A stretch of DNA of 43,736 nt from an uncultured Hyphomicrobiales bacterium. Its GTDB lineage: Bacteria > Pseudomonadota > Alphaproteobacteria > Rhizobiales > Beijerinckiaceae. Numbering within the stretch: the first letter of the stretch is position 1; each line of letters opens with the position of its first letter. The position numbers were made by a program, and so were the translations under genes. The stretch lies in NCBI GenBank assembly GCA_903889985.1, contig CAISZN010000249.1, positions 1-43,736 of the forward strand, given 5' to 3'. The notes under the pieces were generated by a model. That model made no database searches. It worked only from the letters and a program-made list of their open reading frames with translations, and was not told the origin of the DNA. Positions 2,382 through 43,449 of the stretch are shown in pieces.

Positions 2382-2675
2382 TCAGCCCCCTGCCCCGATG
2401 AGACCGGACTTGGCCGCCGCGTCGCAGAGGACAGTCGTGGCCGCGTCGATCTTGGTGATGGTCTTCTGCGTTCCAGACGAGGTGTCGAGGACCGCGATGA
2501 CCTTCGAGGTCGTGGGCTCAAGGACGCAGTAGGCTGTGGCCGTGACCTGCACGACCCGCTTGCCTGCTGCGGTCCACGAATTGAGGCTGGCCTGCTGCGC
2601 CGGAGTGAGGTCAGTCAGGAAACAGCCGCTCAGTCCGAGCGCGAGGATAGCGGCGAGCGCCGCGAACCCCTTCAT
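2382..2675 (-). CDS. small lipoprotein, possible spanin-like
   Basis: MKGFAALAAILALGLSGCFL signal with lipobox LSGC; lysis cassette position. Confidence 0.65.
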   Translation of the reverse strand: MKGFAALAAILALGLSGCFLTDLTPAQQASLNSWTAAGKRVVQVTATAYCVLEPTTSKVIAVLDTSSGTQKTITKIDAATTVLCDAAAKSGLIGAGG

Positions 2676-2866
2676 TTCTTCCCCTCCGGCAGAGCCGCGC
2701 CGATGCCGGCAAGGGCAGGCACGATGTAGGGCAGAGCCGCCATAACGTAATCATGCACGCCGGGGATCGCGATGATGGCGAGGCCGATAGAAGTCCACGT
2801 CGAGGGCTCGCCCAGACGCGACAGAACGTAGCCCGTGAGGGCTTTCACGAGGTCCATAGTGGTCAT
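2672..2866 (-). CDS. putative holin
   Basis: MTTMDLVKALTGYVLSRLGEPSTWTSIGLAIIAIPGVHDYVMAALPYIVPALAGIGAALPEGKK: short and hydrophobic, charged C-terminus, adjacent to the endolysin. Confidence 0.65.
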   Translation of the reverse strand: MTTMDLVKALTGYVLSRLGEPSTWTSIGLAIIAIPGVHDYVMAALPYIVPALAGIGAALPEGKK

Positions 2867-2880
2867 CCTATTTAGGGAGT

Positions 2881-2920
2881 GCCCGCCGGGGTTAAGGATG
2901 TTCGCGCGGCCCCGGCGGGC
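2881..2920. repeat. GC-rich inverted repeat / hairpin
   Basis: GCCCGCCGGGG (2881-2891) and CCCCGGCGGGC (2910-2920), perfect 11-bp arms with an 18-nt loop, just upstream of the holin start. Confidence 0.8.
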
Positions 2921-2941
2921 GGCCCTCCGCACGAATTCGGA

Positions 2942-3118
2942 TTACTCAGACCGGCACTTGATGACGCCGGGAGATTGGTGTTTGCAGACCACGGGCGCGG
3001 CGTTCGGGTCCGCGCGATAGTGGGTGCCGTTGAAGTCGATGGCGCAGCCTGTCAGCAGCAGGGCGGTGATGAGGATCACGGCGCCGAGAAAGGTGAATGA
3101 GGCGGCCATGTCATCCAT
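2942..3118 (-). CDS. small lipoprotein (possible spanin component)
   Basis: MDDMAASFTFLGAVILITALLLTGCAIDF with lipobox LLTGC; overlaps the 3' end of the endolysin gene. Confidence 0.6.
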   Translation of the reverse strand: MDDMAASFTFLGAVILITALLLTGCAIDFNGTHYRADPNAAPVVCKHQSPGVIKCRSE

Positions 3119-3608
3119 GGCCCTGCACATCCTGCCAAGGGTCATAGGTGGTCGGGGGGTACCAAGAACGCGAGAACAAGGCAGGCTGGCGCCAGATCGG
3201 AACGCGCTGCACATGGCCTGCGTCAGGCTGGCTGTTGTGCTTGCCGGTGTGCCCCCAGTCAATGCCGCTCACCATCCCGTGCTTTTTGCACAGGGCGAGC
3301 AGGAAATTGTATTTGCCGCCGTCCTTCACATACTGACCGCCCTCAAAGAGCTGCAGATCGGCGGCGATTCCGTAGCCGTGGCATCCGACCTTCGACAGGT
3401 GAGACGCGCCGGCCATGAAAACCTGATGCTGCCGAGCCTGAGAGCGATAGGTCTCGCCTACGCGCAGATCGTGGCCCATGGCTTTTGCGTCTGCGATGAT
3501 GGCAGCAACCGCAGCGCGGGTGCCTGGTTCGAGCAGCGACACGTCGTTGATCGTGTTGGTCGAGTTGAAGCGTGGGTCCTTCATCAGGACGTCGGTGTAA
3601 AAGCTCAT
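3111..3608 (-). CDS. endolysin, M15-family peptidase
   Basis: 'ETYRSQARQHQVFMAG...SKVGCHGYGIAADLQLFE...HGMVSGIDWGHTGKHN...DAGHVQ' resembles phage L-alanyl-D-glutamate/VanY-like peptidases. Confidence 0.82.
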   Translation of the reverse strand: MSFYTDVLMKDPRFNSTNTINDVSLLEPGTRAAVAAIIADAKAMGHDLRVGETYRSQARQHQVFMAGASHLSKVGCHGYGIAADLQLFEGGQYVKDGGKYNFLLALCKKHGMVSGIDWGHTGKHNSQPDAGHVQRVPIWRQPALFSRSWYPPTTYDPWQDVQGHG

Positions 3609-3619
3609 GATGTCACCAA

Positions 3620-3964
3620 TCAGGGATAGAGGGCGCGCAGGCTCTTTTTGAGGGTGAGCTTGCCGCGATTTTGAACCGAGACCGCATTCGAAGCGTCAAC
3701 GGCATCGACTTCGTAGGTGTAATCCCCGGCCACGAGGCTCGTTTGCCGGCTGTCAGTCGCAGCGATGGTCAGGGTGTAGGTTCCGCCCGTTCCAGTGTCG
3801 ATTGCGATGTCGGCCGGGGAAAGTGCCTTGAGTACCCCCGCCGTGTCGGATGCGACCCGGAATTCGACCGACCCGCCGGTCAGGTTCATCGGGACACCGT
3901 CAGCGTCAACTGCTGTGCCTTGGATCGTCCACGTCTCGCCAATGTAGAAGGCGATGTTCGTCAT
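3620..3964 (-). CDS. baseplate/fiber-associated protein with BppU-like Ig domain
   Basis: 'YIGETWTIQGTAVDADGVPMNLTGGSVEFRVAS...GDYTYEVDAVD' typical of the BppU N-terminal type domain. Confidence 0.6.
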   Translation of the reverse strand: MTNIAFYIGETWTIQGTAVDADGVPMNLTGGSVEFRVASDTAGVLKALSPADIAIDTGTGGTYTLTIAATDSRQTSLVAGDYTYEVDAVDASNAVSVQNRGKLTLKKSLRALYP

Positions 3965-8541: not shown

Positions 8542-9470
8542 GTCATTGGACCTTTGCGGATGGCCATTCCGATGTAGGACTGAGACGCTGACAACCCGCT
8601 GAAGGTTATGCCAGTCGATGTGGGAGTGCCGTAGTCAGTTACGCCATCCCCAGCGGTTGTATTCATTGCGAGCGTGTAATCTGCGCCTGATGACCACCAA
8701 AGCCGGGATTGATCAAGAAAGATCCAATTGCCGGTAGTAGTTGTCGCCTTAAACAGCACGCATTGAGGTTCCCATCCTAGTGTCACTGAGGCGTTTCCAG
8801 AACCGTCAGTGGTGAAGCCGAAGCATTGGATTAGACCGTTGGTCGTATCCGGATCATGCGCAAAAAGATAAGCGATATAGTTGACGCTTATGGTGTTCCC
8901 ATTGTTGACAATGGCCGGTGTGAATGTTGTGGAGTTGAATGTTGATTCATAAGACGTTGAGGCGGTTGAAAGGGCGGCGTTTGTCGCCTGCAAGCCACCC
9001 GACAAGATCCAAACAGACTTTGTTCCTGCGCCATCGCGCGCAAGCACGTTCCACATATCCGATGCCGACGTTTTCTTGATCAGGATAAACCCCGGCGCAA
9101 TCCCCAACGGATGCGCAACGGTTCGACCGAAATCTGAATCGCCCGTTCCGGTGTAGGCAACCGCACAGCAGAACTTGGAAATCTGCTTGAACCGCAGCAA
9201 GAGGGCGTTCCCAGAGCCAAGGCCACCCGCATAGGTGATGAATGACCCTTGAGCTGCCGTTGAATCAGAAGCCAGTGTGTTAGAAAGGCCGCGCGCGCTG
9301 TCACGCCATATCCAGGAGTTCGTATTGACCCGGCTCTTGCCGATGAGCAAGTCCCATCCTGTTGTGCTAAGGGCGTCGAGATTGGCAGCCGTGTCCGCTG
9401 TGATGCTGAACACGTCCTGAATTTTCGTGCTGTTTCCGGAAATCAGGCCAAGGCGACCGGCGACATACAT
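8538..9470 (-). CDS. fiber/receptor-binding-type structural protein (phage DUF7483-like, tentative)
   Basis: 'GFTTDGSGNASVTLGWEPQCVLFKATTTTGNWIFLDQSR' and 'PGFILIKKTSASDMWNVLARDG' repeats typical of phage virion proteins. Confidence 0.6.
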   Translation of the reverse strand: MYVAGRLGLISGNSTKIQDVFSITADTAANLDALSTTGWDLLIGKSRVNTNSWIWRDSARGLSNTLASDSTAAQGSFITYAGGLGSGNALLLRFKQISKFCCAVAYTGTGDSDFGRTVAHPLGIAPGFILIKKTSASDMWNVLARDGAGTKSVWILSGGLQATNAALSTASTSYESTFNSTTFTPAIVNNGNTISVNYIAYLFAHDPDTTNGLIQCFGFTTDGSGNASVTLGWEPQCVLFKATTTTGNWIFLDQSRLWWSSGADYTLAMNTTAGDGVTDYGTPTSTGITFSGLSASQSYIGMAIRKGPMT

Positions 9471-11233
9471 CAGGCAGCAGCCTTCTGGATCGAGTAAAGG
9501 ATCACGTTCGTAGCGACCACTTCGTAATAGAGGTAGTCGTTTTTGCTGGCAGTCGTGGTCAAGGCGATGGCCGTGCCGCCCGCCGTTATCCAGTTGGTGC
9601 CATAGGTGATCAGGCGCGATCCCGTCGTGTCTTGGGCGAGTTTGATGCGCCCAGCCTGCCCGACCTTCTGGTTAGTTGGGTTGGCAAGCGTGATGTTCCC
9701 GGTCAGAGACCCGATGTCGAAGTTCACGCCGGTCGAGAAATCGAGCGTGACGGTCGCGGCATAGCTGACCGAAACTGGAACCATTCCCGCCCAGAAAGTC
9801 GCGATGCTCAGGATCTTCGAGGCTGTATTCGACAGGAACTCAGCAGTCGTGCCGATGGCCGCCGTTGCCATCATGGCGAATGTGACGACGCCAGCCGCAA
9901 TGGTTGTGGCTAAAGACCCGGCAGTCGTCGTGACGTTGCCCGTCAGGGCCGGGAACTGCGCAGCTTGCAATGTGCCGGTGACGCCTGTTGAAAGCGGCAG
10001 GCCCGTTGCATTGGTTAGCGTGAGCGAGGTCGGGGTGCCAAGGGCGCCAGAGAATGTGACCAAGCCGCTCGCGGCGTTCGTGGCATTCGCAAGGGCAGCC
10101 AGAACGCCTGTTCCCGCGCCTGACAGGCCCGTGGAGATGGGCAGTCCCGTCGCGTTCGTCAGGACGCCAGAGGCCGGAGTTCCAAGCGCCGGGGTGACCA
10201 AGGTCGGGGATGTCGCAAGCACGATACCGCCGGAGCCCGTGACGGCAGCGGCAAGCGCCGTGCCGACGCCCGTCCCGAGACCGGAGAGATTGCCAACGGT
10301 CGGCTGCGCATAGGTGACAGCGCCGGTCGTGTCGATGCCGGTTGCGAACTGGTTGGCAGCCGCCGACGAAGACTTGACGCCGCCAAGCGCCACGGAAGTC
10401 GGTGTCGGGAGACGGGCCGCAGGCAAGGTGCCCGCGCCAAGATCAGATGCAGACCCGGAGGTAGCAACAGTCGCCAGGGCTCCACCATCGGCAATCAAAT
10501 CGCCAGACGACCCGCTGAACACCGCGACATGGCCAGCAACAGGGGTGCCGGTATGCGAGACGGTGCCAGAGCCAGAGCCGGACGCGCCCGTGTCGCCCTT
10601 CGGGATGGTCAGGTTGAGGCTATAGTTCGGATTGGTCCCAGAGATGGTTGCGGAGGCGCTAGACCCCGCAGCGCCGGTCGTCACTGAGCCGATAGTCACA
10701 TTCGGTGCAGGGCCAGTCGGCCCCGTGTTGCCAATGTTTCCTTGCGGGCCAACTACCGAACCCACGTCCATCGTGGAGGTGTCCGACATCGTCAGGATCA
10801 GATGTCCTGAGCCATTGACGGTGCCAGAAACGACCGATAGGCCGTTCGTCCCGTTGGTGCCCTGCGCCACACCGCAGTCCACATTCGTGGAATTGGACAT
10901 CGTCAGGATCAGGTGCCCGTTGCCGGAATTGATCGCTGCCGACGCCACATAGAGGCCGTTGGTGCCGTTGGTGCCGTCCGCACCCTTGACAATGCCGCAG
11001 TCCAGAGTGCCGCCCGTCGAGAAGGTCAGGATCAGGTGACCCGAGCCATTCACAGACGCCCCGGATACGGACGCGCCAGGAGGTCCAGAAACACCCTGCG
11101 CGCCGCGCTTGATGGTCGCCGCGACGCCCCCCTCCACAGTGTCAGAGGTGACAGGTGCGACGCTGATGGAATATCCCGTGACAGGGACGGGGATCACGCC
11201 CTCATTGTTGGCGTCAAGGACGATTGAGGTCAT
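9470..11233 (-). CDS. tail fiber protein with collagen-like and beta repeats
   Basis: GADGTNGTNG / GPQGNIGNTGPTG collagen-like segments and 'LGTPASGVLTNATGLPISTG' repeats common in phage fibers. Confidence 0.8.
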   Translation of the reverse strand: MTSIVLDANNEGVIPVPVTGYSISVAPVTSDTVEGGVAATIKRGAQGVSGPPGASVSGASVNGSGHLILTFSTGGTLDCGIVKGADGTNGTNGLYVASAAINSGNGHLILTMSNSTNVDCGVAQGTNGTNGLSVVSGTVNGSGHLILTMSDTSTMDVGSVVGPQGNIGNTGPTGPAPNVTIGSVTTGAAGSSASATISGTNPNYSLNLTIPKGDTGASGSGSGTVSHTGTPVAGHVAVFSGSSGDLIADGGALATVATSGSASDLGAGTLPAARLPTPTSVALGGVKSSSAAANQFATGIDTTGAVTYAQPTVGNLSGLGTGVGTALAAAVTGSGGIVLATSPTLVTPALGTPASGVLTNATGLPISTGLSGAGTGVLAALANATNAASGLVTFSGALGTPTSLTLTNATGLPLSTGVTGTLQAAQFPALTGNVTTTAGSLATTIAAGVVTFAMMATAAIGTTAEFLSNTASKILSIATFWAGMVPVSVSYAATVTLDFSTGVNFDIGSLTGNITLANPTNQKVGQAGRIKLAQDTTGSRLITYGTNWITAGGTAIALTTTASKNDYLYYEVVATNVILYSIQKAAA

Positions 11234-11820
11234 GGATTGGCGCCCTGCGAAACCTTGATCAGGCCGTAAAAGACCGGCGTGACGTTGCCGGACTTGTAGA
11301 AGTTGAGGTCATATCCGTAGAGACCGGGCAGGACCAAAGATGTGCGCGCCTTGGGAAACGCGAAGGTGATGTTCCCGTTTGCCGTAGGGGTCGCAATGTT
11401 GATCGCAGCCGCGTTGCCGTCTGAGCCATCCGAAGTGAACTGAATGATCGGACGGCGTGGGTATGCGATCTCATTTGTGCTGGGATCGAGCGTGGCGACC
11501 TCGAACTTCAAGACCCCGCCCGTCAGGTCGAGAGGCGTTGCGCCATAGGTTGTGCTGTCGCCAACCTTGACCCAGTAGCTTGATTCAGCCGCGAAGGAAG
11601 ACCCGGAAGTCCATGCCCCAACCGCCGCCGTGTTGGCGACGTAGAGGTCCCCGTTATAGGTCACCACCGACTGAGGCGATGAGGACTGATAGGACGTGGC
11701 CGCAGCCCATGCCGCTACATTGACCCACGGCGTTGTTATGCCGGGGCCATTGTAGAGGGTGAACGCGCCCGTCCAGTCCGCGTTATTGCGAACGACGAGG
11801 TCGAGGCGAGGGACTGCCAT
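11230..11820 (-). CDS. baseplate/fiber-associated protein with BppU-like Ig segment
   Basis: 'PLDLTGGVLKFEVATLD...GLYGYDLNFYKSGNVTPVFYGLIKVSQG' similar in layout to the 3620..3964 product. Confidence 0.55.
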   Translation of the reverse strand: MAVPRLDLVVRNNADWTGAFTLYNGPGITTPWVNVAAWAAATSYQSSSPQSVVTYNGDLYVANTAAVGAWTSGSSFAAESSYWVKVGDSTTYGATPLDLTGGVLKFEVATLDPSTNEIAYPRRPIIQFTSDGSDGNAAAINIATPTANGNITFAFPKARTSLVLPGLYGYDLNFYKSGNVTPVFYGLIKVSQGANP

Positions 11821-11829
11821 ATGTGACCC

Positions 11830-12027
11830 TTATTCTTCGGGCTGGACGACCGGGGCGATAGTCCAGTGGCCAGCGTCGTCCACCGTGCTGCCGACCGTCA
11901 CGTCATCGGGGACCTCGGTGAACTGCGCCACCACGTCAGGGTGAAAGCATTCCTCGATGGTGAACCCATTGTGAGGGACGAAGACCTCGACGACGGTGCT
12001 GTTTTGGATGCGTGCATAGGTGGTCAT
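11830..12027 (-). CDS. small phage protein, fiber-module
   Basis: MTTYARIQNSTVVEVFVPHNGFTIEECFHPDVVAQFTEVP; internal ATG of the supplied ORF. Confidence 0.55.
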   Translation of the reverse strand: MTTYARIQNSTVVEVFVPHNGFTIEECFHPDVVAQFTEVPDDVTVGSTVDDAGHWTIAPVVQPEE

Positions 12028-12034
12028 GGCTTCC

Positions 12035-13150
12035 TCACCATTCGACAATCACAAGGCCAGCGCCGCCCGCCGCGTTGGTCGTGGCTGCTGTGCCGCCTGA
12101 CGACCCGCCGCCGCCTGCGCCAATGCCGCCAGCGCCACCCGACGTGCCGGCCGTTGCAGAGGCCACACCAGTCCCGACACCACCGCCCCCGCCGCCGCCA
12201 CCGACGCCACCCGCGCCGCCGGCGCTGCTTGACCCCGTGGGAGCGCCACCGCCACCACCACCGCCGGTCCCGCCTGCCGTACCCGCGCCGGAGTTGACGC
12301 CAGCGCCACCCACACCCCGGAACTTCATGTCGGTGAAGAACCGCGCCGCGAAACTGTAGATCGTCGTGTCTTCGCCGGCAGTGCTTCCCGCGATGTTCGG
12401 GCCGCCGGGGTTCGACCCACTGGCGACACCCGCATTGCCTGCGCCCCCAGAGCCACCGCCAGAGCCAGAAAACTGGTTGGCGTTACCAGCGCCGCCGACG
12501 CCGCCGGTCCCCGCGCCGCCACCGCCACCGGCCTGCGTGGCGGACGTGTTGGTGGCGCCCGCGCCGCCAGTGAACGGACTGATGCCATTCGACCCGCCAC
12601 CACCGCCAGCCCCTGCCAAGCAAGCCGTGCCGACGCCGGGCCCGCCACCACCACCAACGCCGCCGGTCCCGCCGGTTGCAATGAACTGGCCGCCCGACCC
12701 CGCGCCACCGGCACCGCCCGTGCCACCAGTCGGCAACGATCCAGTTGTGCCTGCTCCACCGGCTGACCCGGCAGTGGCCGAAATCAGAGACCCAAACGAC
12801 GATGAACCCGTGCCGGCTGTGATGGCAAATGCGGTCCCCTGCACGACATCAACGATGCCTTGTGCAAATCCACCCCCGCCACCACCGCCACCACCCGATG
12901 CGCCGTTGTTGAAGGCAGTCGTGCCGACGCCACCCGCACCACCCGCGCCACCTGCACCAATGGTGCTGACGCGGACCTTCTTGACACCGAACGGAATGGT
13001 GAATGTCGTATTGGCCGTGAAAACAATGGCCTGCCCACGGCCAAAAATGTCCTGCCCGGCTGGGCGCTGCGTTTCGTAAAAGCCGTCCGGGAAGACGAAT
13101 TGCACGCGCTGAGAGATTGGGAAGCCAAGTCCCGAGTCGCCACGGTTCAT
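12035..13150 (-). CDS. glycine-rich tail fiber/adhesin-like protein
   Basis: Long poly-Gly tracts (GGGGGGGGG, GGAGGVGGGGGGGGVG) after an N-terminal beta domain 'QAIVFTANTTFTIPFGVKKVRVSTIGAGGAGG'. Confidence 0.75.
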   Translation of the reverse strand: MNRGDSGLGFPISQRVQFVFPDGFYETQRPAGQDIFGRGQAIVFTANTTFTIPFGVKKVRVSTIGAGGAGGAGGVGTTAFNNGASGGGGGGGGGFAQGIVDVVQGTAFAITAGTGSSSFGSLISATAGSAGGAGTTGSLPTGGTGGAGGAGSGGQFIATGGTGGVGGGGGPGVGTACLAGAGGGGGSNGISPFTGGAGATNTSATQAGGGGGAGTGGVGGAGNANQFSGSGGGSGGAGNAGVASGSNPGGPNIAGSTAGEDTTIYSFAARFFTDMKFRGVGGAGVNSGAGTAGGTGGGGGGGAPTGSSSAGGAGGVGGGGGGGGVGTGVASATAGTSGGAGGIGAGGGGSSGGTAATTNAAGGAGLVIVEW

Positions 13151-21562: not shown

Positions 21563-24247
21563 TCACGCATCAATCGGAGCAAAGGCGGTGCGCACGTCAT
21601 GGTCATTGGTCGATTGAGTATGTTCATGACGCCCGACCATTTCGCTTTCCATGGCCGATGCGAAGACGCGCCCATTGACGGTGAAAACCATCTTCTTTTG
21701 GCCCGTCGTTGCCCCTGAAGGAGGAACAAAGCTTGATTGCTTCCCCGGTGGTTTTGCCGCCGCTGGCGCATTTGGCGTTGTGCCTAGTGACGGCATTTTG
21801 AACCCACTCAGGGCACCCTGAATGCCGCTCAGGAGAGAAGCCCCGGCACGGGAGCCCGCGCCTGCAAAATCTGCCCCCGCAAATCCGTTTGTTATCTTCA
21901 AGCCAGCATCCGTGCCCTTAGTGGCAAACCCGGCAAGGCTAAAACCGTTAGCGAGCTGCGTGGCCGCTTCGGCACCTTTGGCTGTGTTATCTTTTGTTGG
22001 CGCAAGTTCCTGCGGACCGCCAATCGGTTTTGGGAACGGCGCAATGCCGGAAGACAGCGATTTCCCAATCGCGTCACCAATATATTTGCCGACCTTAGAT
22101 GCCGCACCTGATAAGTCTGCCGAATTAACGTCTGGCATCTTGGGCAGGGACGACTGCGGCATCTTACCAAGACCGGGGGTCTTAACCCCGCCAAGCGAAC
22201 CCATAATGCCACTGAGCAAGGAAGCCCCGGCTTTAGTGCCAGCCCCTGCAAAGTCTGCACCAGCGAACCCGCCGATGGTCTTTTGTCCAGCGGATTCGCC
22301 ATTGGTGGCGAAGCCAGCGACATTGAACCCGCTGGCAATCTGCTGCGCTGCTTCCGCGCCCTTGGCTGCAAGCCCAGCGGTGTCACCCACAGATTTGCTT
22401 TCACCTTGCGGGGCACTTGGGGTTGATTTTTGAGGGGCGGCTAATGGCCCTTTTGTCGGAGCAGACGGGCGGACGCCCCACCTCTTAGTGAGGTCATCCA
22501 TGGCCTTCATGCGGTCGTCAATTTCGCCGCTCGGGACGCCCCAAAACTGAAGCGGCCACCCGCTCGTAGGCCCCTGCCCGATTGAATATGGCGGGGCAGG
22601 CATATTGCCGGGGACGCCGTTCATACCAAATCGGAACGCTGCGCGCCCATCACCGATAGAATACTTTTCGGCTTCCGGCATCTTCGGGCCATTCAAGCCA
22701 AAGTGCGGACTGCGGTCGCCTTCCTTATTTGGTGGCTTGATAAGTGCCAACGCGACGGCAAGCGCGGTGATAGCACCCGCGACCAAACCAACCGCACCAG
22801 CCGCGCCGACAGCCGCAGAAATGACGGCCGTGCCACCAATCACGAGCAGTGCGGCTGAAAGTGCTGCGATTGCAATCCCAATGTTTGCCATCGCGCCGGG
22901 GTTTGCATTCGCGAACCCGCCAATGGAAGTGAACATTTCCGTGATGCCCTTCATCACAGGGATTGCTGCCTGCATCATCGGCGCACCGATGGATTGCATC
23001 ATGCTTTCGTGCTGTTCTTCATAGGCCTTTTTAACGCCCTTAGAATTTCGGTTCGTGTAGTCGTTATAGGACTGGTCAATGCTATGTGCCTGACGCCACT
23101 GCGGAATGTCTTTGGCGATTTGATCAAGGAAGCCAGGGTCCGAAAACATTGTGAGCATACGCATGACATTGCGATTGCGGCCAACCTTCGCAATGTTGCT
23201 ATCAAATTCGGAACGCTCTTCCGGGTTCATGTGGGATACGTCGATTTTTTTATCACCGACTGATCGGATCAGGTCGCCCAACATCCCTTTTTCTTTGGTG
23301 GTCAGGGCTGTCAATGCAGGGGTGACGACTTTCGTCATCCAACCATGGATGTCGAACTTCCCCTGCCCAGTGTAGTCGGATGACCCAACAATGCCTCCGG
23401 GCGCGACGTTTATGCGACCGCCCTTATCGTGAGTGACCTTCGACGGATCAATCAACTTAGCCTTGTTCAACAGCTCATATTGCTGTTTTGACAGGGTGTT
23501 CGCCCCCGTCATGAACATATATGCCGACATCATGGCCGTGCCGGCGGTGTCGCCGCCTAGATCCGCCGCGACGACAGACATCGGGCCAGCAAGAAAGTCA
23601 GGACTTGCGTTCGCCCAAGCGACACCGCCACGCTTGGCCATGGTCTGATAGGTGCCGGCATCGAGCTTGCCACCAGACCCGATGATGTTTTGAGCAAGCC
23701 TTTCAGCGAGTGCTTTCGTTCCAACGGGGTCGGACGTGGTGCGCCCGGTCATCTCCATTGCGCGCCACATCTTCATGCCTTCGCCCTCGGCTTTCTTGCC
23801 GGTGGCGTTGGCGATGATAGCCTCAAGCTTCATCGACCAAGGCGTGATTTCTTCCGCGTGTTGAGCCCCAACGACTGATCGCAGTTCGTTGTAATTGCGG
23901 AGATAGTCTGAAACCGTCGAAGTCGGGACGGCCGTGGCGACCTCGCTGTAATACTTGCTTTGGAGGCGCAGGACCTCGTTGTATTTGATGCCGCTGCGCT
24001 GAAGCTTGTCCTGCTGATCCAGCAGCTTGTCGCCGTGGTTCGCGATACCCTTGAGTTCGGAGGCAAGACCAAGGCCCGCACCGATAGAAAGAGCCCCCCA
24101 AATGGCAGGCTTGAGCCCGGCAAGGCCCTTTTGCAGGGTCGCCACGCTGGCCCCAAGGTCCAGAACCTCTTTCGAAATCGCCGCAAGGACGCCAGAGACG
24201 CCATTTTCCGCCTTCAGGTGGATTGCGACTTCATAGACTTGGGCCAT
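21563..24247 (-). CDS. tail tape measure protein
   Basis: 894 aa, largest tail-module gene, internal hydrophobic segment, duplicated C-terminal blocks (GFNVAGFATNGESAGQKTIGGFAGADFAGAGTKAGASLLSGI). Confidence 0.9.
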   Translation of the reverse strand: MAQVYEVAIHLKAENGVSGVLAAISKEVLDLGASVATLQKGLAGLKPAIWGALSIGAGLGLASELKGIANHGDKLLDQQDKLQRSGIKYNEVLRLQSKYYSEVATAVPTSTVSDYLRNYNELRSVVGAQHAEEITPWSMKLEAIIANATGKKAEGEGMKMWRAMEMTGRTTSDPVGTKALAERLAQNIIGSGGKLDAGTYQTMAKRGGVAWANASPDFLAGPMSVVAADLGGDTAGTAMMSAYMFMTGANTLSKQQYELLNKAKLIDPSKVTHDKGGRINVAPGGIVGSSDYTGQGKFDIHGWMTKVVTPALTALTTKEKGMLGDLIRSVGDKKIDVSHMNPEERSEFDSNIAKVGRNRNVMRMLTMFSDPGFLDQIAKDIPQWRQAHSIDQSYNDYTNRNSKGVKKAYEEQHESMMQSIGAPMMQAAIPVMKGITEMFTSIGGFANANPGAMANIGIAIAALSAALLVIGGTAVISAAVGAAGAVGLVAGAITALAVALALIKPPNKEGDRSPHFGLNGPKMPEAEKYSIGDGRAAFRFGMNGVPGNMPAPPYSIGQGPTSGWPLQFWGVPSGEIDDRMKAMDDLTKRWGVRPSAPTKGPLAAPQKSTPSAPQGESKSVGDTAGLAAKGAEAAQQIASGFNVAGFATNGESAGQKTIGGFAGADFAGAGTKAGASLLSGIMGSLGGVKTPGLGKMPQSSLPKMPDVNSADLSGAASKVGKYIGDAIGKSLSSGIAPFPKPIGGPQELAPTKDNTAKGAEAATQLANGFSLAGFATKGTDAGLKITNGFAGADFAGAGSRAGASLLSGIQGALSGFKMPSLGTTPNAPAAAKPPGKQSSFVPPSGATTGQKKMVFTVNGRVFASAMESEMVGRHEHTQSTNDHDVRTAFAPIDA

Positions 24248-24370
24248 CTAGAAACCTGCGCTAAAGTGGGGAATTCATGGAGACTGACGGCTATGCGCTT
24301 ATGGTTTAGCGGCCCAAGGATAATGGGGATCAGAACCGGCGTGAGCTTCGGTCCGGAGGATTGGCGAGCG

Positions 24371-24922
24371 ATGAACCCGCCGACTGACCCGGCCATAAGC
24401 GGGAAGCTCGACGGTGCATTCGTCTATGTCATCACCGGGCAGCACGGGAAATCCAAGATTGGTGTGTCTGGGAACCCGATTGCTCGTCTGGCTCAACTTC
24501 AAACAGGGTCGCCAGACGCCCTTGCACTAGCGTTTATCGGGGCGACGAACGGCGGCGGATACCGGGTCGAGGCAGAAGCCAAGCGCATCTTGGCGAAACA
24601 GTCGCTTGCGACCGATGAATGGTTCGACGTTCAACCGGAACTTGCGATTTCGGTCGTCATGGGAGCGGCTGTGAAGGTCAAGGAGCCCGTCGCGGTCGTC
24701 TCAGCATCTCAGGTGCCGACAATCATTCGCGCTTGCCTCAGCGCGCCGGGGACGGCCGCTGCCAAGCCATCTGCGGTCCCATATATTGCCGCCACCGCAT
24801 TGATGATGGCCTCATTGGCATTCATTATCGGGAAGCTAACCGGCGGGAACTTCTTGCCCCCTGCTATAGGCGTCTCGATTGGATATGCGATTGCCTTGGC
24901 CGTGTATTTCAAGGTCCGGTGA
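24371..24922 (+). CDS. GIY-YIG (Mug113/T5orf172-like) protein with C-terminal transmembrane segments
   Basis: 'GAFVYVITGQHGKSKIGVSGNPIARLAQLQTGSPDAL...YRVEAEAKRILAKQSLATDEWFDV' matches the GIY-YIG/Mug113 layout; C-terminus 'YIAATALMMASLAFIIGKLTGGNFLPPAIGVSIGYAIALAVYFKVR' is hydrophobic. GGAGG 11 nt upstream of ATG 24371 (upstream in-frame ATGs exist at 24293 and 24323). Confidence 0.82.
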   Translation: MNPPTDPAISGKLDGAFVYVITGQHGKSKIGVSGNPIARLAQLQTGSPDALALAFIGATNGGGYRVEAEAKRILAKQSLATDEWFDVQPELAISVVMGAAVKVKEPVAVVSASQVPTIIRACLSAPGTAAAKPSAVPYIAATALMMASLAFIIGKLTGGNFLPPAIGVSIGYAIALAVYFKVR

Positions 24923-25310
24923 TCGACTTCAAAGCGCCGTTGGCAATCATGTCGGCGGCCTTCTGGCCATCATGTGCCACTGCCCCGCCGAGGAACGGAC
25001 GCGCCGGGATTTTTGAAGTCCCAAACTCATGCCACGTTGCCTTCTTGTTGTCCGACCCGACATAGCCTTCATGCCGGTCTGAATTGTGAGTGATGGACGC
25101 CTTCAACTCGCCAGTATCCAGCAGTGGCGTGTCGCCATGCTTCGCAACGGCTGCCGGGCCCAGGGGCGCCCATCCGAACTTGTATGTTCCAATCGCATCC
25201 TTGGCCGAATTCTCAAGGACGACGCAGGCCTTTTCCATGCTATCGCCCAGGTGCTTTTCGCAGGCGATGGAAGCGGCCATCATCTTGGCAGCAAATGTCG
25301 CAAGGTCCAT
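24909..25310 (-). CDS. HK97 gp10-like tail completion/morphogenesis protein
   Basis: 'WHEFGTSKIPARPFLGGAV' signature; starts 4 nt after the frameshifted chaperone stop. Confidence 0.72.
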   Translation of the reverse strand: MDLATFAAKMMAASIACEKHLGDSMEKACVVLENSAKDAIGTYKFGWAPLGPAAVAKHGDTPLLDTGELKASITHNSDRHEGYVGSDNKKATWHEFGTSKIPARPFLGGAVAHDGQKAADMIANGALKSITGP

Positions 25311-25314
25311 GAGA

Positions 25315-25904
25315 TTAATCCCGCTTGTTCCAGCGCATATTGCCCCAATTCCACTCGCCGCCCTCAAACTCACCAAAGACGATCACAGCGGCCTTGCGCA
25401 TCATTGTGGGCATGGACATCGCTAGGTCCGGGTCCATGCCGTTTTTTATGAGCCACAGAACTTCAATAAATTCCGGGCTCTGAGCTAGTTTTTTATTTCA
25501 TCCGTGGCAGGACCCGCATCAACTTCATATGACGTGAAGCGGTTCATGCCCTCGGTGGCTGCCGTCACACCATGGAAGTCAAGCTGGGCCATCAAGGCCT
25601 CAAGTTGTGATCTGGTACGGGGACGCGAAATAGGCTGCCCGTCGATCTCCACGACCGACGATGACATGAGAGCCTGACGCAACGCGACCGCGTTCTGTGC
25701 GTCATCCCCTAACATGCAAGTGACGTGATGGGTGTCGAGGAAATTCAGCTTCTTAACGCCAATGATGCGTCCGGCTGCATCCTTCACCTTTTCAATGCGG
25801 GTTGCATCCGCCTTGATCCGTTCCGCCAGCGACATCTCTGCCGGGGCGGCCTGCGGCTGATGCGCAGCCTGCACGTTCGATACTTTCGCCATTCTAGTCT
25901 CCAT
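25315..25904 (-). CDS. predicted -1 frameshift product: tail assembly chaperone G-T fusion (~196 aa)
   Basis: Slip at A AAA AAC gives ...DEIKN|LAQSPEFIEVLWLIKNGMDPDLAMSMPTMMRKAAVIVFGEFEGGEWNWGNMRWNKRD*; the 57-codon extension ends at 25315. Confidence 0.75.
25485..25904 (-). CDS. tail assembly chaperone (P2 E / G-like, unshifted product)
   Basis: 139-aa ORF between tail tube and tape measure; ends DEIKN-TAG at the slippery site. Confidence 0.82.
   Translation of the reverse strand: METRMAKVSNVQAAHQPQAAPAEMSLAERIKADATRIEKVKDAAGRIIGVKKLNFLDTHHVTCMLGDDAQNAVALRQALMSSSVVEIDGQPISRPRTRSQLEALMAQLDFHGVTAATEGMNRFTSYEVDAGPATDEIKN
25488..25494 (-). promoter_or_regulatory. -1 ribosomal slippery heptamer A AAA AAC
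   Basis: Plus-strand GTTTTTT; codons AT[A AAA AAC] TAG in the chaperone frame match X XXY YYZ. Confidence 0.8.
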
Positions 25905-26011: not shown

Positions 26012-26449
26012 TCAGACGACCTTGATCATCGTCGAGGCAACCCAGTCGATCTTCATCGACACCTTGTCCTGCGCCTTCCACTGGCCCTTCTGAGCCAGCT
26101 TGAACGCCACCTTCTCGTAACGGTACTGCGAGAGGGTGCCGTTCTGCTCGGTGATCGTCTCGGTGATCGTGCCGGTCAGCAGGTTCGAGCCGTTCCAGTA
26201 GAGCGCCTCGTTGCGGGCGAAGAAGTCGTCGATGGACGAATCCCGGCGATCAAACTCAATAGAGCCCTTCCATCCGGTCGGAAGCTCGGCATAGAGCGGC
26301 GGGGAATTCAGAGGCTCGGACACGATCTGCTTGGTGTTCGGCTCAGAATTAAAGCCGGTCGCGGCAGGCCACGAAACGATCTGGCCGGTGACGGGATCGG
26401 TCACATCGACCGCAACGTCATGGCCAATGGAAAAGCCATTCAAGGGCAT
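26012..26449 (-). CDS. tail tube protein
   Basis: 'MPLNGFSIGHDVAVDVTDPVTGQIVSWPAATGFNSEPNTKQIVSEPLNSPPLYAELPTGWKGSIEFDRRD', directly after the sheath gene. Confidence 0.82.
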   Translation of the reverse strand: MPLNGFSIGHDVAVDVTDPVTGQIVSWPAATGFNSEPNTKQIVSEPLNSPPLYAELPTGWKGSIEFDRRDSSIDDFFARNEALYWNGSNLLTGTITETITEQNGTLSQYRYEKVAFKLAQKGQWKAQDKVSMKIDWVASTMIKVV

Positions 26450-26513: not shown

Positions 26514-28385
26514 TCAGACCGGAGGCGTGTTCGAGATCGTGACGCTTGCGCCGCCTTCGAGGTTCACGACGAAATAGCGCACGATGCCCAGATAGATCGC
26601 CTTGACGTAGGCGTACTGGTAACCAAGCGCCGTGGTGGCCTGCGAGTTGTTCGAGCCATCAAGGATGACCTGATAGGCCTGCGACCCATCCGCCGTGCCG
26701 ATGATGCCGTTCTTCTGCGCGAGCGAAAGGAATTCCATCAAGGCAACGCGAGCCTGACGACGCTCGTCAGGGGTCTGCGTCTTGCCGATGTACTGACCGG
26801 CGATGACTTCGATGGACTTGGCGAGGAAGTAGGTGACGCGGGGATACTCGTCACCGAAGATGACCGGGTTCGAGGACGTGTTGATGCCCAGCCGCGCGGC
26901 GAAGTAGTTGCCGCCGGGCGACTGGTTGGTGATGACGTCCATGCGGGCCGCTGCGAGCGCCTGCCAGTCGGCATAGGAGTAGGTCTTGCCGAGGATCGAG
27001 GACTGCGTGCCAACGATGCCGTTGATCGGCTTGTTGAGGGTGTTCTGCTCAGGGGATAGCGCACCCAGCTTGCCGAGGATGACGCCGGCAGGTGCAGAAA
27101 CGCGCTGCGAGATGTTGTTGATTGTGTCAGCCCAGACGATCCAGTCACCGAAAACGGCCTTGATCGTGAAGCTGTCCACGCCAGCGGTGTTGAGGGTGGT
27201 CGAGGCATTGGTGATCGTGTCGCCCGAGGGGGACGACCAGATCGGATAGGCGCCGATGTCGAGGCCGAAAGCCACCATCGCGCCAAGCGCCGCAGTGTCG
27301 GACAGGTCGGCAATTGCGAACTGCGAGACGCGGGCGCCGCGCAGGGCATACATGCCGGTGCGTGGAACGCTGTCCTGCCCGAGAAGCATCGTCGTGGTGA
27401 CGCTGGACGCGCCGTCGGTGCCGCTCGAGAAGGTATAGGTTGCAGAGATCGGTGCGTTGGTGTTCGCACCGGCCGAGGCCACCAGAAGATTGGACGGTCC
27501 GCGTGTGCCCGACAGTCCGCTGTTGATGGCTGCGGCGATGGCAACCCATAGGGCATTGCCCGTCAGGCCAGAGCCGATGTTGTCATAGACCTCGGGAAGG
27601 AAGCCCGGCAGGGATGCAACGAGCTTCCATGTGCCGCTTTGCGTGCCGGCCGAGATGATGGCCTTGAGGCTGTTGCCCAGAGCGCCGGTGTACTTGCCAG
27701 TGAGGGTGAGGCCGGTGGCAGTTGCCACGCCACCCGACAGGGTCGCGCCGGAGACAGCGAGGACGGTCGCTACCTTGGCCAGCGGGAAGCTGTTGCCAGC
27801 GGTGCCGAAGGTCTTGAAGGTGACCGTGATGACGTTGGCCGAAGTCAGTGCGTAGGAGCACTGCACAAGCTGCGCGTCTGCCGATGCCTGGAGGAAGGCA
27901 AGAGTTGCGGCAATGGTTGCCGACTGTGACGCGCCGATATTGATCTGGTTGCCGGTGGCGCCCGACGCTTTGAAGGTCACCGTCGTGGTGCCAATCGTGA
28001 AGGTGTCGTTTGCGGTCGGGTTGCCCGAGAAAGTGATCGTGCCGCTGGCATAGGCGCCGGTTGCGACCGTCGAAGTTGCGGCCACGTCGGTGCCGTCAGT
28101 GACGCGCACGCCTGCGTGGTATCCAGCGCCCTGCATGGACGCGAGGATGACCTGCGAGCCCATGTCGCCCGTGCGGTTGATCGTCGGCCCGAAGATCTGG
28201 GCGAACTGCGGATAGCCGCCGAACACCTGCGGGACGCCAACAGGCCCCCAGGTTGCAGTCCCGACGTGGCCGCAAACATTGGTGGAGACACCACCAAAGA
28301 GGAACTGCGGGGGGACAATCTGGACGAGCGGCTGTGGGACGCTCAACGCCGAAACGTTGACAGCGCCAAGCTGTGAGATGGGCAT
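26514..28385 (-). CDS. tail sheath protein
   Basis: 623 aa; 'VGTATWGPVGVPQVFGGYPQFAQIFG' N-terminus and '...IGKTQTPDERRQARVALMEFLSLAQKNGII' C-terminal region. Confidence 0.9.
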   Translation of the reverse strand: MPISQLGAVNVSALSVPQPLVQIVPPQFLFGGVSTNVCGHVGTATWGPVGVPQVFGGYPQFAQIFGPTINRTGDMGSQVILASMQGAGYHAGVRVTDGTDVAATSTVATGAYASGTITFSGNPTANDTFTIGTTTVTFKASGATGNQINIGASQSATIAATLAFLQASADAQLVQCSYALTSANVITVTFKTFGTAGNSFPLAKVATVLAVSGATLSGGVATATGLTLTGKYTGALGNSLKAIISAGTQSGTWKLVASLPGFLPEVYDNIGSGLTGNALWVAIAAAINSGLSGTRGPSNLLVASAGANTNAPISATYTFSSGTDGASSVTTTMLLGQDSVPRTGMYALRGARVSQFAIADLSDTAALGAMVAFGLDIGAYPIWSSPSGDTITNASTTLNTAGVDSFTIKAVFGDWIVWADTINNISQRVSAPAGVILGKLGALSPEQNTLNKPINGIVGTQSSILGKTYSYADWQALAAARMDVITNQSPGGNYFAARLGINTSSNPVIFGDEYPRVTYFLAKSIEVIAGQYIGKTQTPDERRQARVALMEFLSLAQKNGIIGTADGSQAYQVILDGSNNSQATTALGYQYAYVKAIYLGIVRYFVVNLEGGASVTISNTPPV

Positions 28386-28664: not shown

Positions 28665-29522
28665 TCATTGAGTGAGTGTGACGGTCGGGCCAAGGTCGCC
28701 GGCCGAATTCTTGCCTTGTGTCTGAGTGACGGGCGCGGTGATCGGGTAGCCGGTCGAAACCTGCGTCGTCGCGTATTCGACCCAATAGAAGAGATCGCGC
28801 CGGTAGAGGTTCGCGCGTTCCATCTGGTCGGTATCGTTCTGGCCTCGGTATTTCATCCATGCCTTTGTGAGGTCGGGCATGGTGAGGAAGTCGGTCGATG
28901 CGAGCGCCACGTCGATCAGATTGGCAGTCGTGGACCGCAGCGAGGGCGAAGGCGCCCACACGATGATCTGGAAGCCCCTGTTCTGGCGCTTCAACTCGCG
29001 AATGATGGTCCCGGCAGCAGCAACGCGCGCCGTGACGCGGCCTTCTGCCTTGACGGGGACGGTGATGACCGCCCCGGATGATGTCGTGCCCGTCCAGTCC
29101 ACGACCACGAGCGCCGTCAGGGCCGTGGCAATGGTGGTCAGCGTGTCATTGACAAGGGCCGCATAGGAATAGGCCTTGTTGCCCACGATGAGGGTCACAT
29201 ACTGGCCTGCTGTGACCGTGCCTGCGATGGTGATGGTGCGCGCTGCGACGGTGGCCGTCAGAGTTGCTGTCCCGAGCGTCTGGTCTTCCCAGTTCTGCGG
29301 GTATCGCGTCGTCACCTGTTCCATGTTCGGCTGGGCATAGACCGTGACCGTCACCTCGCCCGCGACGAGTGCCGCGTCGAGCTGCGTCGAGTTGGGCCAG
29401 CCAGGGGCGATGTAGCAGCCGACGCCGATGGTCGAGGCCTGTCCTGTCCCGTTCGGATAGATCGCGCCTGCAATCAGGGTGGCGAGGGCTGTTTCAACGT
29501 CGGAAAGGTCACACAAATTCAA
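28665..29522 (-). CDS. head-tail/tail structural protein, function unknown (TTG start)
   Basis: 285 aa; the start codon in the supplied ORF is TTG, overlapping the HNH stop codon. Confidence 0.7.
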   Translation of the reverse strand: MNLCDLSDVETALATLIAGAIYPNGTGQASTIGVGCYIAPGWPNSTQLDAALVAGEVTVTVYAQPNMEQVTTRYPQNWEDQTLGTATLTATVAARTITIAGTVTAGQYVTLIVGNKAYSYAALVNDTLTTIATALTALVVVDWTGTTSSGAVITVPVKAEGRVTARVAAAGTIIRELKRQNRGFQIIVWAPSPSLRSTTANLIDVALASTDFLTMPDLTKAWMKYRGQNDTDQMERANLYRRDLFYWVEYATTQVSTGYPITAPVTQTQGKNSAGDLGPTVTLTQ

Positions 29523-30064
29523 CCCCTCGCGAATTCGCCGTGGAACCGATCTGCCCCTACGACATATGCGGCGTGAGCGTCTTCCGGGGTTGGGTACAGG
29601 CCCAACGAGATGCTTTTGCCTTCATGCTGGATGCGGGCTCTGTATCGTCCGCTCTGCTTGTGAAGGTGGACGCCCTTGAACCCCGATTTGTTGCTCGACT
29701 TCATCGGGCCGTTGCGGGAGTTTTCGATATGTTGCGCAGACCGAAGGTTTTCCCAGCTATTGTTGCTCTTGTTTAGGTCACGGTGGTCGACTTCGGCTTC
29801 GGGCCATTCACCCGTCATATACAGCCATGCAAGCCGGTGAGCGCCGACCAAGCGGTTCTTGATCCTGATGCTGTGGTAGGCGTCAGACAAATACCCTGCG
29901 ATCTTGCCGGCGTGTTTGGAATTCCAGTTTTCGCAAATATGCTTCGCCGTCCTGCGCTTAGATGGCACAAAAGCATCAGGAGCGCGGGCCTTCCATCTAA
30001 ACTCGCCTGTTTTTGGGTCATAACTTACCAATTCGCGAAGCTTGTCTGCTGTCAGGTCGGCCAT
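29519..30064 (-). CDS. HNH endonuclease with C-terminal AP2-like DNA-binding domain
   Basis: 'AHRLAWLYMTGEWPEAEVDHRDLNKSNNSWENLRSAQHIENSRN' HNH and 'SGFKGVHLHKQSGRYRARIQHEGKSISLGLYPTPEDAHAAY' AP2. Confidence 0.9.
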   Translation of the reverse strand: MADLTADKLRELVSYDPKTGEFRWKARAPDAFVPSKRRTAKHICENWNSKHAGKIAGYLSDAYHSIRIKNRLVGAHRLAWLYMTGEWPEAEVDHRDLNKSNNSWENLRSAQHIENSRNGPMKSSNKSGFKGVHLHKQSGRYRARIQHEGKSISLGLYPTPEDAHAAYVVGADRFHGEFARG

Positions 30065-42608: not shown

Positions 42609-42621
42609 TACCAAAATGGAT
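42609..42621. promoter_or_regulatory. operator-like site 1 TACCAAAATGGAT
   Basis: Shares TACCAAAATGG with the two neighbouring sites. Confidence 0.7.
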
Positions 42622-43449
42622 TTATTAATGCAAGATAAAAATACCAAAATGGATTTGGACGAGATGCGCCTTGTCATTTACCAAAATGGTATGAGCGCCT
42701 TGCGTACCCAAAGAAGGAAAATTGGGCTGAGCCAAAGTGATTTGGCTTTGCTTGTGGGCACGACCCAGCCTCAGATCATGCGTCTGGAAAATGGCGACCG
42801 GAAGTTTACCAAAGAGTGGGCTGAGCGTATTGCGCCTCACTTGAATGTAACTGCTCAAGAATTGTTATTTGAAGACATTCTGCCACAAGACAGCGAAAGC
42901 TTAGCCGGTGTAGTTAACCAGAACACTGAGATTACAAATCAACTTATTGACAAGCCTAAGCAATCTAACCCCAAATTAGACAAAACAAACGGCGCGTACC
43001 TGACACCGGCGGATCACATTCCGATTGCGGGGTCACGGTTAGCGCGCGACGTGCCAGTTTTAGGGGTGGCTGTGGGCGGAGAAGACGCGGACTTCAGTTT
43101 CAATGGTGACACCATAGATCAGGTGCGCCGCCCACCAGGCATTGCCGGTCAGAAGGGCGTCTATGCCCTTTACGTCGTCGGTACAAGCATGTCGCCCAAG
43201 TTTGAAGAGGGCGACCTGATTTATGTCAGCACCACCCGCCCCCCATCAATCGGGGATTGTGTAGTGATTGAGCTTTATCCCGAAAGCGACGACAAGCCCG
43301 GCAAAGGATTTGTAAAGCGTCTCAAATCACGGAATTCAGCAAAGGTCATTTGCGACCAGTTCAAGCCACCGAAAGAGATTACATTCAACAGAGAACGAGT
43401 GAAATCAATTCACCGCGTCATCCCGTGGAATGAGCTGCTAGGGGTGTGA
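42616..43449 (+). CDS. CI-like repressor: XRE HTH plus S24/LexA-like peptidase domain
   Basis: HTH 'RRKIGLSQSDLALLVGTTQPQIMRLENG'; 'GTSMSPKFEEGDLIYVS' S24 signature. The true start may be ATG 42691 (M26). Confidence 0.9.
   Translation: MDLLMQDKNTKMDLDEMRLVIYQNGMSALRTQRRKIGLSQSDLALLVGTTQPQIMRLENGDRKFTKEWAERIAPHLNVTAQELLFEDILPQDSESLAGVVNQNTEITNQLIDKPKQSNPKLDKTNGAYLTPADHIPIAGSRLARDVPVLGVAVGGEDADFSFNGDTIDQVRRPPGIAGQKGVYALYVVGTSMSPKFEEGDLIYVSTTRPPSIGDCVVIELYPESDDKPGKGFVKRLKSRNSAKVICDQFKPPKEITFNRERVKSIHRVIPWNELLGV
42642..42654. promoter_or_regulatory. operator-like site 2 TACCAAAATGGAT
   Basis: Identical to site 1, 33 bp away. Confidence 0.7.
42679..42691. promoter_or_regulatory. operator-like site 3 TACCAAAATGGTA (perfect palindromic arms)
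   Basis: TACCA-AAA-TGGTA, 37 bp from site 2. Confidence 0.7.

Follow-up and report, generated by a model that had tools for sequence, protein, structure and literature searches.

The window, the whole 43,736-bp stretch analysed here (contig CAISZN010000249.1), contains a tail operon that is read from the minus strand except for one plus-strand open reading frame, which was confirmed between the tape measure protein (TMP) gene and the tail-completion gene. Baseplate J, GPD hub and base-V proteins encoded in the window indicate a contractile-type tail, and the phage is most likely temperate, as judged from a CI-like repressor. With 8.6% contamination in the draft assembly, the host is uncertain, and no exact terminal repeat of the contig was found. 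The features discussed below are as follows.

21563–24247, minus strand: TMP gene, 894 aa (PHROG tail length tape measure, E=3e-4; homologous to the genes in the TMP position of relatives)
24248–24292: 45-bp gap between the divergent starts of the TMP gene and the antisense gene
24293–24922, plus strand: antisense gene, 209 aa plus stop (N-motif, MUG113-type GIY-YIG domain and C-terminal hydrophobic helices)
24293–24364, plus strand: N-terminal motif (N-motif) of 24 residues, MRLWFSGPRIMGIRTGVSFGPEDW, missing from the reading frame first proposed
24416–24742, plus strand: GIY-YIG core of MUG113/T5orf172 type, residues 42–150 (Pfam, AlphaFold2, Foldseek BFVD)
24425–24427, plus strand: Tyr45, position of the GIY tyrosine, identical in 9/9 phage copies checked
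24485–24487, plus strand: Arg65, position of the catalytic Arg, identical in 9/9 phage copies checked
24569–24571, plus strand: Glu93, position of the metal-binding Glu, identical in 9/9 phage copies checked
24773–24841, plus strand: hydrophobic helix 1, residues 161–183 (KD19 2.02; AlphaFold2 helix 162–183)
24857–24916, plus strand: hydrophobic helix 2, residues 189–208 (KD19 1.69; AlphaFold2 helix 189–208)
24909–24922: 14 bp in which the 3′ ends of the antisense gene and the tail-completion gene overlap
24909–25376, minus strand: tail completion/Neck1 (Phage_tail_S) gene (Pfam, PHROG)
25485–25904, minus strand: chaperone-position tail gene (synteny with relatives; PHROG of unknown function)
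26012–26449, minus strand: tube-position tail gene (synteny with relatives; PHROG of unknown function)
26514–28385, minus strand: gene for the sheath-position protein, 623 aa (role inferred from position; no Pfam match)
42616–43449, plus strand: CI-like repressor gene (HTH and S24 peptidase), on the same strand as the antisense gene

Elsewhere in the window, an HNH_3 and AP2 gene of the homing type lies in the head/tail block (29519–30064, minus strand), and a candidate endolysin gene (3111–3608, minus strand) is marked by a weak VanY peptidase match below the cut-off (E=0.003).

A sequence-only reading had described the antisense gene as lying between the TMP and tail-completion genes with a 14-bp overlap at its 3′ end, all of which is present, and its moron-like character is borne out by this layout in a phage with a CI-like repressor. 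The start assigned at 24371 was wrong. This position is internal to a frame that is open upstream, and the start is placed at the ATG at 24293 because the N-motif is encoded in frame there and is common to relatives. The corrected start adds 26 N-terminal residues, including this overlooked, conserved motif. Neither a search of the 45-bp gap for a sigma-70 consensus nor a search for a consensus promoter or terminator of the antisense gene returned a match. High-GC windows hold many long antisense frames, and the gene could on that account be a spurious one; comparison with relatives rejects this explanation, whose probability we regard as negligible. The protein is conserved in ten phages together with its motif and catalytic residues, and the substitutions are of the coding type: among nine copies with 30–66% amino-acid identity, third codon positions differ most in 36 of 36 pairwise comparisons and second positions differ least, or equal the first, across the same comparisons, as expected for a conserved protein.

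By profile, catalytic-site residues and modelled fold, the antisense protein is a GIY-YIG protein of the MUG113/T5orf172 type and thus a predicted nuclease. The Pfam families MUG113 and T5orf172 (PF13455/PF10544) are matched at E=5e-9 (37 bits against a cut-off of 22.3) and E=1.4e-5 (25.9 bits against a cut-off of 20), respectively, and both are matched in all eight members of an alignment of the family (E≤0.01). Prediction with AlphaFold2 on this alignment, a check that the sequence-only reading had proposed, gives a confident core for residues 42–150 (pLDDT mostly above 90), which matches viral MUG113, T5orf172 and GIY-YIG proteins in Foldseek BFVD (E from 4e-6 to 1e-3); matches in the Foldseek PDB set are weak, with Slx1 first at E=0.32. 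The Tyr, K-x-G, Arg, Glu and EWF positions are retained in all nine phage copies checked, and the domain that had appeared intact by eye is upheld by the profiles, model and residues together. Sequence searches with the antisense protein gave no real match among solved structures and no match in NCBIfam.

The N-motif is weakly predicted by AlphaFold2, as is the N terminus as a whole, and has no match to a Pfam family. A possible likeness to the N termini of DUF4236-type proteins is not supported by the Pfam scan. A profile of the 24 residues, run against the 19,152 ORFs of all fetched loci, recovers family members only, apart from a single spurious weak match (E=0.62); a degenerate DNA pattern for the motif had no match. 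At the other end of the protein, the two hydrophobic stretches recognised earlier are found at KD19 values of 2.02 and 1.69 and are modelled as helices with a pLDDT of about 60–72. These helices are alanine-rich and moderately hydrophobic, and the case for a membrane tail rests on position and conservation because shuffled copies often reach the same threshold through composition. In all ten phages, hydrophobicity over 19 residues peaks after the nuclease domain, within the final quarter of the protein. An envelope location is accordingly a prediction from hydropathy and the AlphaFold2 helices. Members with two helices in L065, L105 and L106 have basic C-terminal residues, which would fit a hairpin with both termini in the cytoplasm by the positive-inside rule.

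The sequence-only reading had proposed a comparison of this locus among related phages. When known phages were searched directly with the window protein, the matches were all generic GIY-YIG proteins; neither this protein nor the window TMP, each used singly, had a match among viral contigs, and an alignment of tail-completion proteins contained no stretch conserved enough for searching. Related phages were reached through the sheath-position protein, and an alignment of antisense proteins then found more. The architecture of N-motif, GIY-YIG domain and C-terminal hydrophobic helix beside a tail-completion gene was observed in ten phages, namely the window, one chromosomal prophage and eight viral contigs, and the gene is antisense wherever tail genes are seen. 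In 8 of the 10, including the window, it lies directly past the completion gene on the TMP side, and it is immediately between the completion gene and the TMP gene in the window, L022, L065, L066, L105, L106 and L137. The L022 copy (G159, 9258–9818) belongs to a prophage inside a 2.27-Mb contig. The L067 copy comes after the completion gene on a contig that stops short of the TMP gene and truncates the N-motif. L109 carries the gene on the opposite side of the completion gene, and about 1.4 kb separates the two genes in L108. This syntenic recurrence supports the earlier suggestion that placement by the TMP gene is not accidental. The classified loci were all selected through tail genes or the antisense protein itself, so their occupancy is not an estimate of frequency.

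The same slot also holds other inserts. In L030 and L031, it contains antisense proteins of 58 and 80 residues, respectively, with the N-motif and one helix and without a GIY-YIG domain, which makes the membrane part the constant element. Across the completion gene from this slot, L032 encodes an antisense protein with a motif-like sequence and a helix. The antisense frames of L071 and L136 include hydrophobic stretches and lack the motif (weak cases), and L063 has no space for an insert. In L137, the gap between the completion and TMP genes is shared with a homing gene, a GIY-YIG and NUMOD3 endonuclease in the sense orientation (2458–3060, plus strand) that lies between the antisense gene and the TMP gene and has none of the membrane features of the antisense gene. 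In L065, the gap is shared with a second antisense ORF (3058–3735, minus strand), which has a signal-peptide-like start and no Pfam match, adjoins the completion gene and partly overlaps the frame of the GIY-YIG gene. L064 encodes an antisense protein with a C-terminal hydrophobic helix after its chaperone-position gene (11665–12486, minus strand; weak DUF6928 match below the cut-off). Two related small proteins are encoded in tail-block gaps of L067 (5662–6135, minus strand) and L106 (8101–8598, minus strand); they begin like a signal peptide, contain an HNH-like stretch (Y.LDH..PL.LGG...RNL.LQP) of negligible Pfam support and are possibly secreted nucleases.

Chromosomal relatives outside phages were seen in six genomes of the window's genus (L023, L024, L025, L026, L027 and L028), a set of seven proteins to which L024 contributes two copies. 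They adjoin metabolic genes, two of them near glmU/glmS-like genes. At least one residue of the GIY-YIG catalytic site is lost in 5 of the 7; the catalytic residues and the N-motif are kept in G005 and in the partial G036 copy. C-terminal hydrophobic helices were seen in G036a, G032, G004 and G035.

The antisense gene sits in an exchanged block at a mosaic boundary, as evidenced by TMPs that differ strongly where tube proteins are nearly identical. In L030, L031 and L032, the tube proteins are 85–87% identical and the TMPs 19–36% identical, and the gene after the TMP gene is 80% identical between L031 and L032; in these three loci, the TMP, completion and chaperone genes have diverged strongly, and the tube and downstream genes that flank them are nearly identical. 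The window and L066 share 63% identity in the TMP and 27% in the completion gene, and for L066 and L105 the identity is 25% in the TMP and 66% in the completion gene. The TMP gene is the fastest-replaced gene of the block. This mosaicism fits pressure on the TMP from tape-measure-directed exclusion, and it also fits exchange promoted by a nuclease gene (PMC10448857). Among the classified loci, the presence of the GIY-YIG domain does not follow TMP type. Matrix correlations over seven loci were not significant for the GIY-YIG protein with the completion gene (r=0.17, p=0.23) or with the TMP (r=-0.14, p=0.69) and thus give no support for gene-specific co-evolution with either neighbour.

A close known system is SNIPE (PD-Lambda-1) of E. 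coli, a GIY-YIG nuclease of the membrane that cleaves DNA as it is injected and involves the TMP (PMC13190303), as the sequence-only reading had stated. SNIPE, described in 2026, tells phage DNA from host DNA by its site of entry and is built of an N-terminal membrane-targeting region, a middle DUF4041 and a C-terminal nuclease (PMC13190303). The antisense protein shares with SNIPE a GIY-YIG domain, a predicted membrane anchor and a conceptual link to the tape measure and DNA injection. Kinship beyond the GIY-YIG domain is not supported, however. DUF4041 has no match in the window protein at E≤1 and none in eight family members at E≤0.01, the helices are C-terminal, the N-motif is new, and the gene is encoded in the tail block of a phage with a contractile-tail baseplate. 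At 209 aa, the protein is also much shorter than SNIPE, in which the catalytic Glu is residue 414. Membership in SNIPE is therefore rejected, with DUF4041 absent and the anchor at the wrong end, and no PADLOC defence-system model matches the antisense protein at E≤1. As read from its sequence, the antisense protein gives the theme of a membrane-tethered GIY-YIG protein another layout, set apart from SNIPE by two tested features. No description of a phage-encoded, membrane-tailed GIY-YIG protein of such a layout was found in the open-access literature.

Other systems resemble the antisense gene in part. The T5orf172/MUG113 proteins of phages, many of which are annotated as homing endonucleases, have the same catalytic domain family (PF13455, PF10544) and fold; the three GIY-YIG matches inspected in known phages lie in other genome regions and not antisense beside a tail-completion gene. 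SieA, which the P22 prophage encodes and which resides in the inner membrane, blocks injection (PMC10883804) and is thus similar in being a prophage gene product of the inner membrane, a location predicted for the antisense protein, with a proposed action at DNA entry; in contrast, SieA is not a nuclease and acts on P22 ejection proteins. Ltp of phage TP-J34, for which PMC3952083 cites Bebeacua 2013, targets the tape measure and, as far as that account goes, is likewise a prophage-encoded exclusion protein of the envelope with the tape measure as a possible target, but is a surface lipoprotein in a Gram-positive host and is described with no nuclease domain. In the Tha/Ith pair of S. aureus prophages, defence is balanced by an antisense layout in a noncontiguous operon (PMC11087260). 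The antisense arrangement of a prophage defence gene is similar here, with regulation suggested by layout; Tha differs in being a HEPN effector that is activated by tail proteins, and no inhibitor gene is known here.

With roughly even confidence, we propose that the gene product is a prophage-expressed nuclease that is tethered to the inner membrane and excludes incoming phage DNA. For this model we infer how the protein is inserted and oriented in the membrane, its expression in a lysogen, its cleavage of DNA, what it targets and how it is switched by antisense transcription. The gene would be a moron of the prophage whose transcription opposes that of the late tail operon, and its product would be held in the inner membrane by the C-terminal helix or hairpin with the GIY-YIG domain facing the cytoplasm. 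In a lysogen, the protein would sit at the exit of the injection channel and cut foreign phage DNA as it emerges, and the N-motif would probably bind a partner, such as the channel, the lipid surface, or the tail or tape-measure protein of an incoming phage. Upon induction, late transcription of the opposite strand through the gene would turn it off. Exclusion is favoured because a gene of this kind occupies the same place in the tail block of related phages. It is also supported by the strand shared with the CI-like repressor and the G159 copy in a chromosomal prophage, by intact catalytic residues and a C-terminal hydrophobic window in relatives, by the N-motif and helix that L030 and L031 retain in the slot, by the precedents of SNIPE, SieA, Ltp and Tha/Ith, and by rapid replacement of the TMP gene. 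Against it stand the position at a mosaic boundary, for which a mobile nuclease would account as well, the moderate hydrophobicity of the helices, which shuffled copies often match, the lack of a promoter or terminator consensus in the searches, and the failure of the GIY-YIG domain to track TMP type. In addition, SNIPE defends against siphoviruses and left myoviruses of the E. coli BASEL set unaffected, and the window phage is contractile-tailed.

The mobile alternative is a free-standing homing or exchange nuclease that would cut gene-free relatives near the completion/TMP junction, with the gene and the TMP gene copied in. The completion and TMP identities that place the slot at a mosaic boundary are in its favour, as are the HNH_3/AP2 homing-type gene elsewhere in the window phage and the tendency of T5orf172 homing genes to cluster near essential phage genes, the TMP gene being frequently interrupted (PMC10448857). 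However, Pfam finds no DNA-binding module (NUMOD, HTH) in the antisense protein, which has a conserved membrane tail and N-motif instead; the N-motif and helix persist in L030 and L031 without the nuclease, and the genuine homing gene that adjoins the antisense gene in L137 looks quite different. A plain homing gene is thus disfavoured, and we consider this reading rather unlikely. Another unlikely alternative is a membrane moron with a GIY-YIG fold that does not cut and acts through binding to DNA or protein, such as a regulator or an injection blocker. Slot relatives without GIY-YIG exist, and a hydrophobic tail is found in 5 of the 7 chromosomal relatives, the same five with catalytic-site loss, but no catalytic residue is missing from any of the nine phage copies checked, even at 30–66% identity. 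That a membrane nuclease might degrade host DNA, or the phage's own DNA at lysis or packaging, is suggested by the nuclease domain and predicted membrane location of this phage protein and by the cutting of host DNA by anchor-less SNIPE (PMC13190303); expression in the lytic phase is not favoured because the gene is read against the late operon and shares its strand with the repressor, and we judge this role improbable.

Exclusion could also be part of an exchangeable module with the TMP, in which a constant membrane scaffold with swappable effectors would form a TMP-based self/non-self code, an extension that we put forward only tentatively. The antisense scaffold of N-motif and helix would carry no effector, a GIY-YIG nuclease or possibly other effectors, which would be co-inherited with the rapidly replaced TMP, such that foreign tails would be cut or blocked and the phage's own tail would escape. 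If this is true, a tail-linked self/non-self code is borne by phages themselves.

The antisense protein represents a more compact and different membrane GIY-YIG architecture, by prediction, whose gene mostly adjoins the gene for the product that SNIPE reads. If the exclusion model is true, nucleases tethered to the membrane have arisen in more than one layout to cut DNA at injection, and such cutting would be a weapon of phage against phage, contractile-tailed phages included. It would also provide a testable reason for the rapid replacement of tape measure genes.
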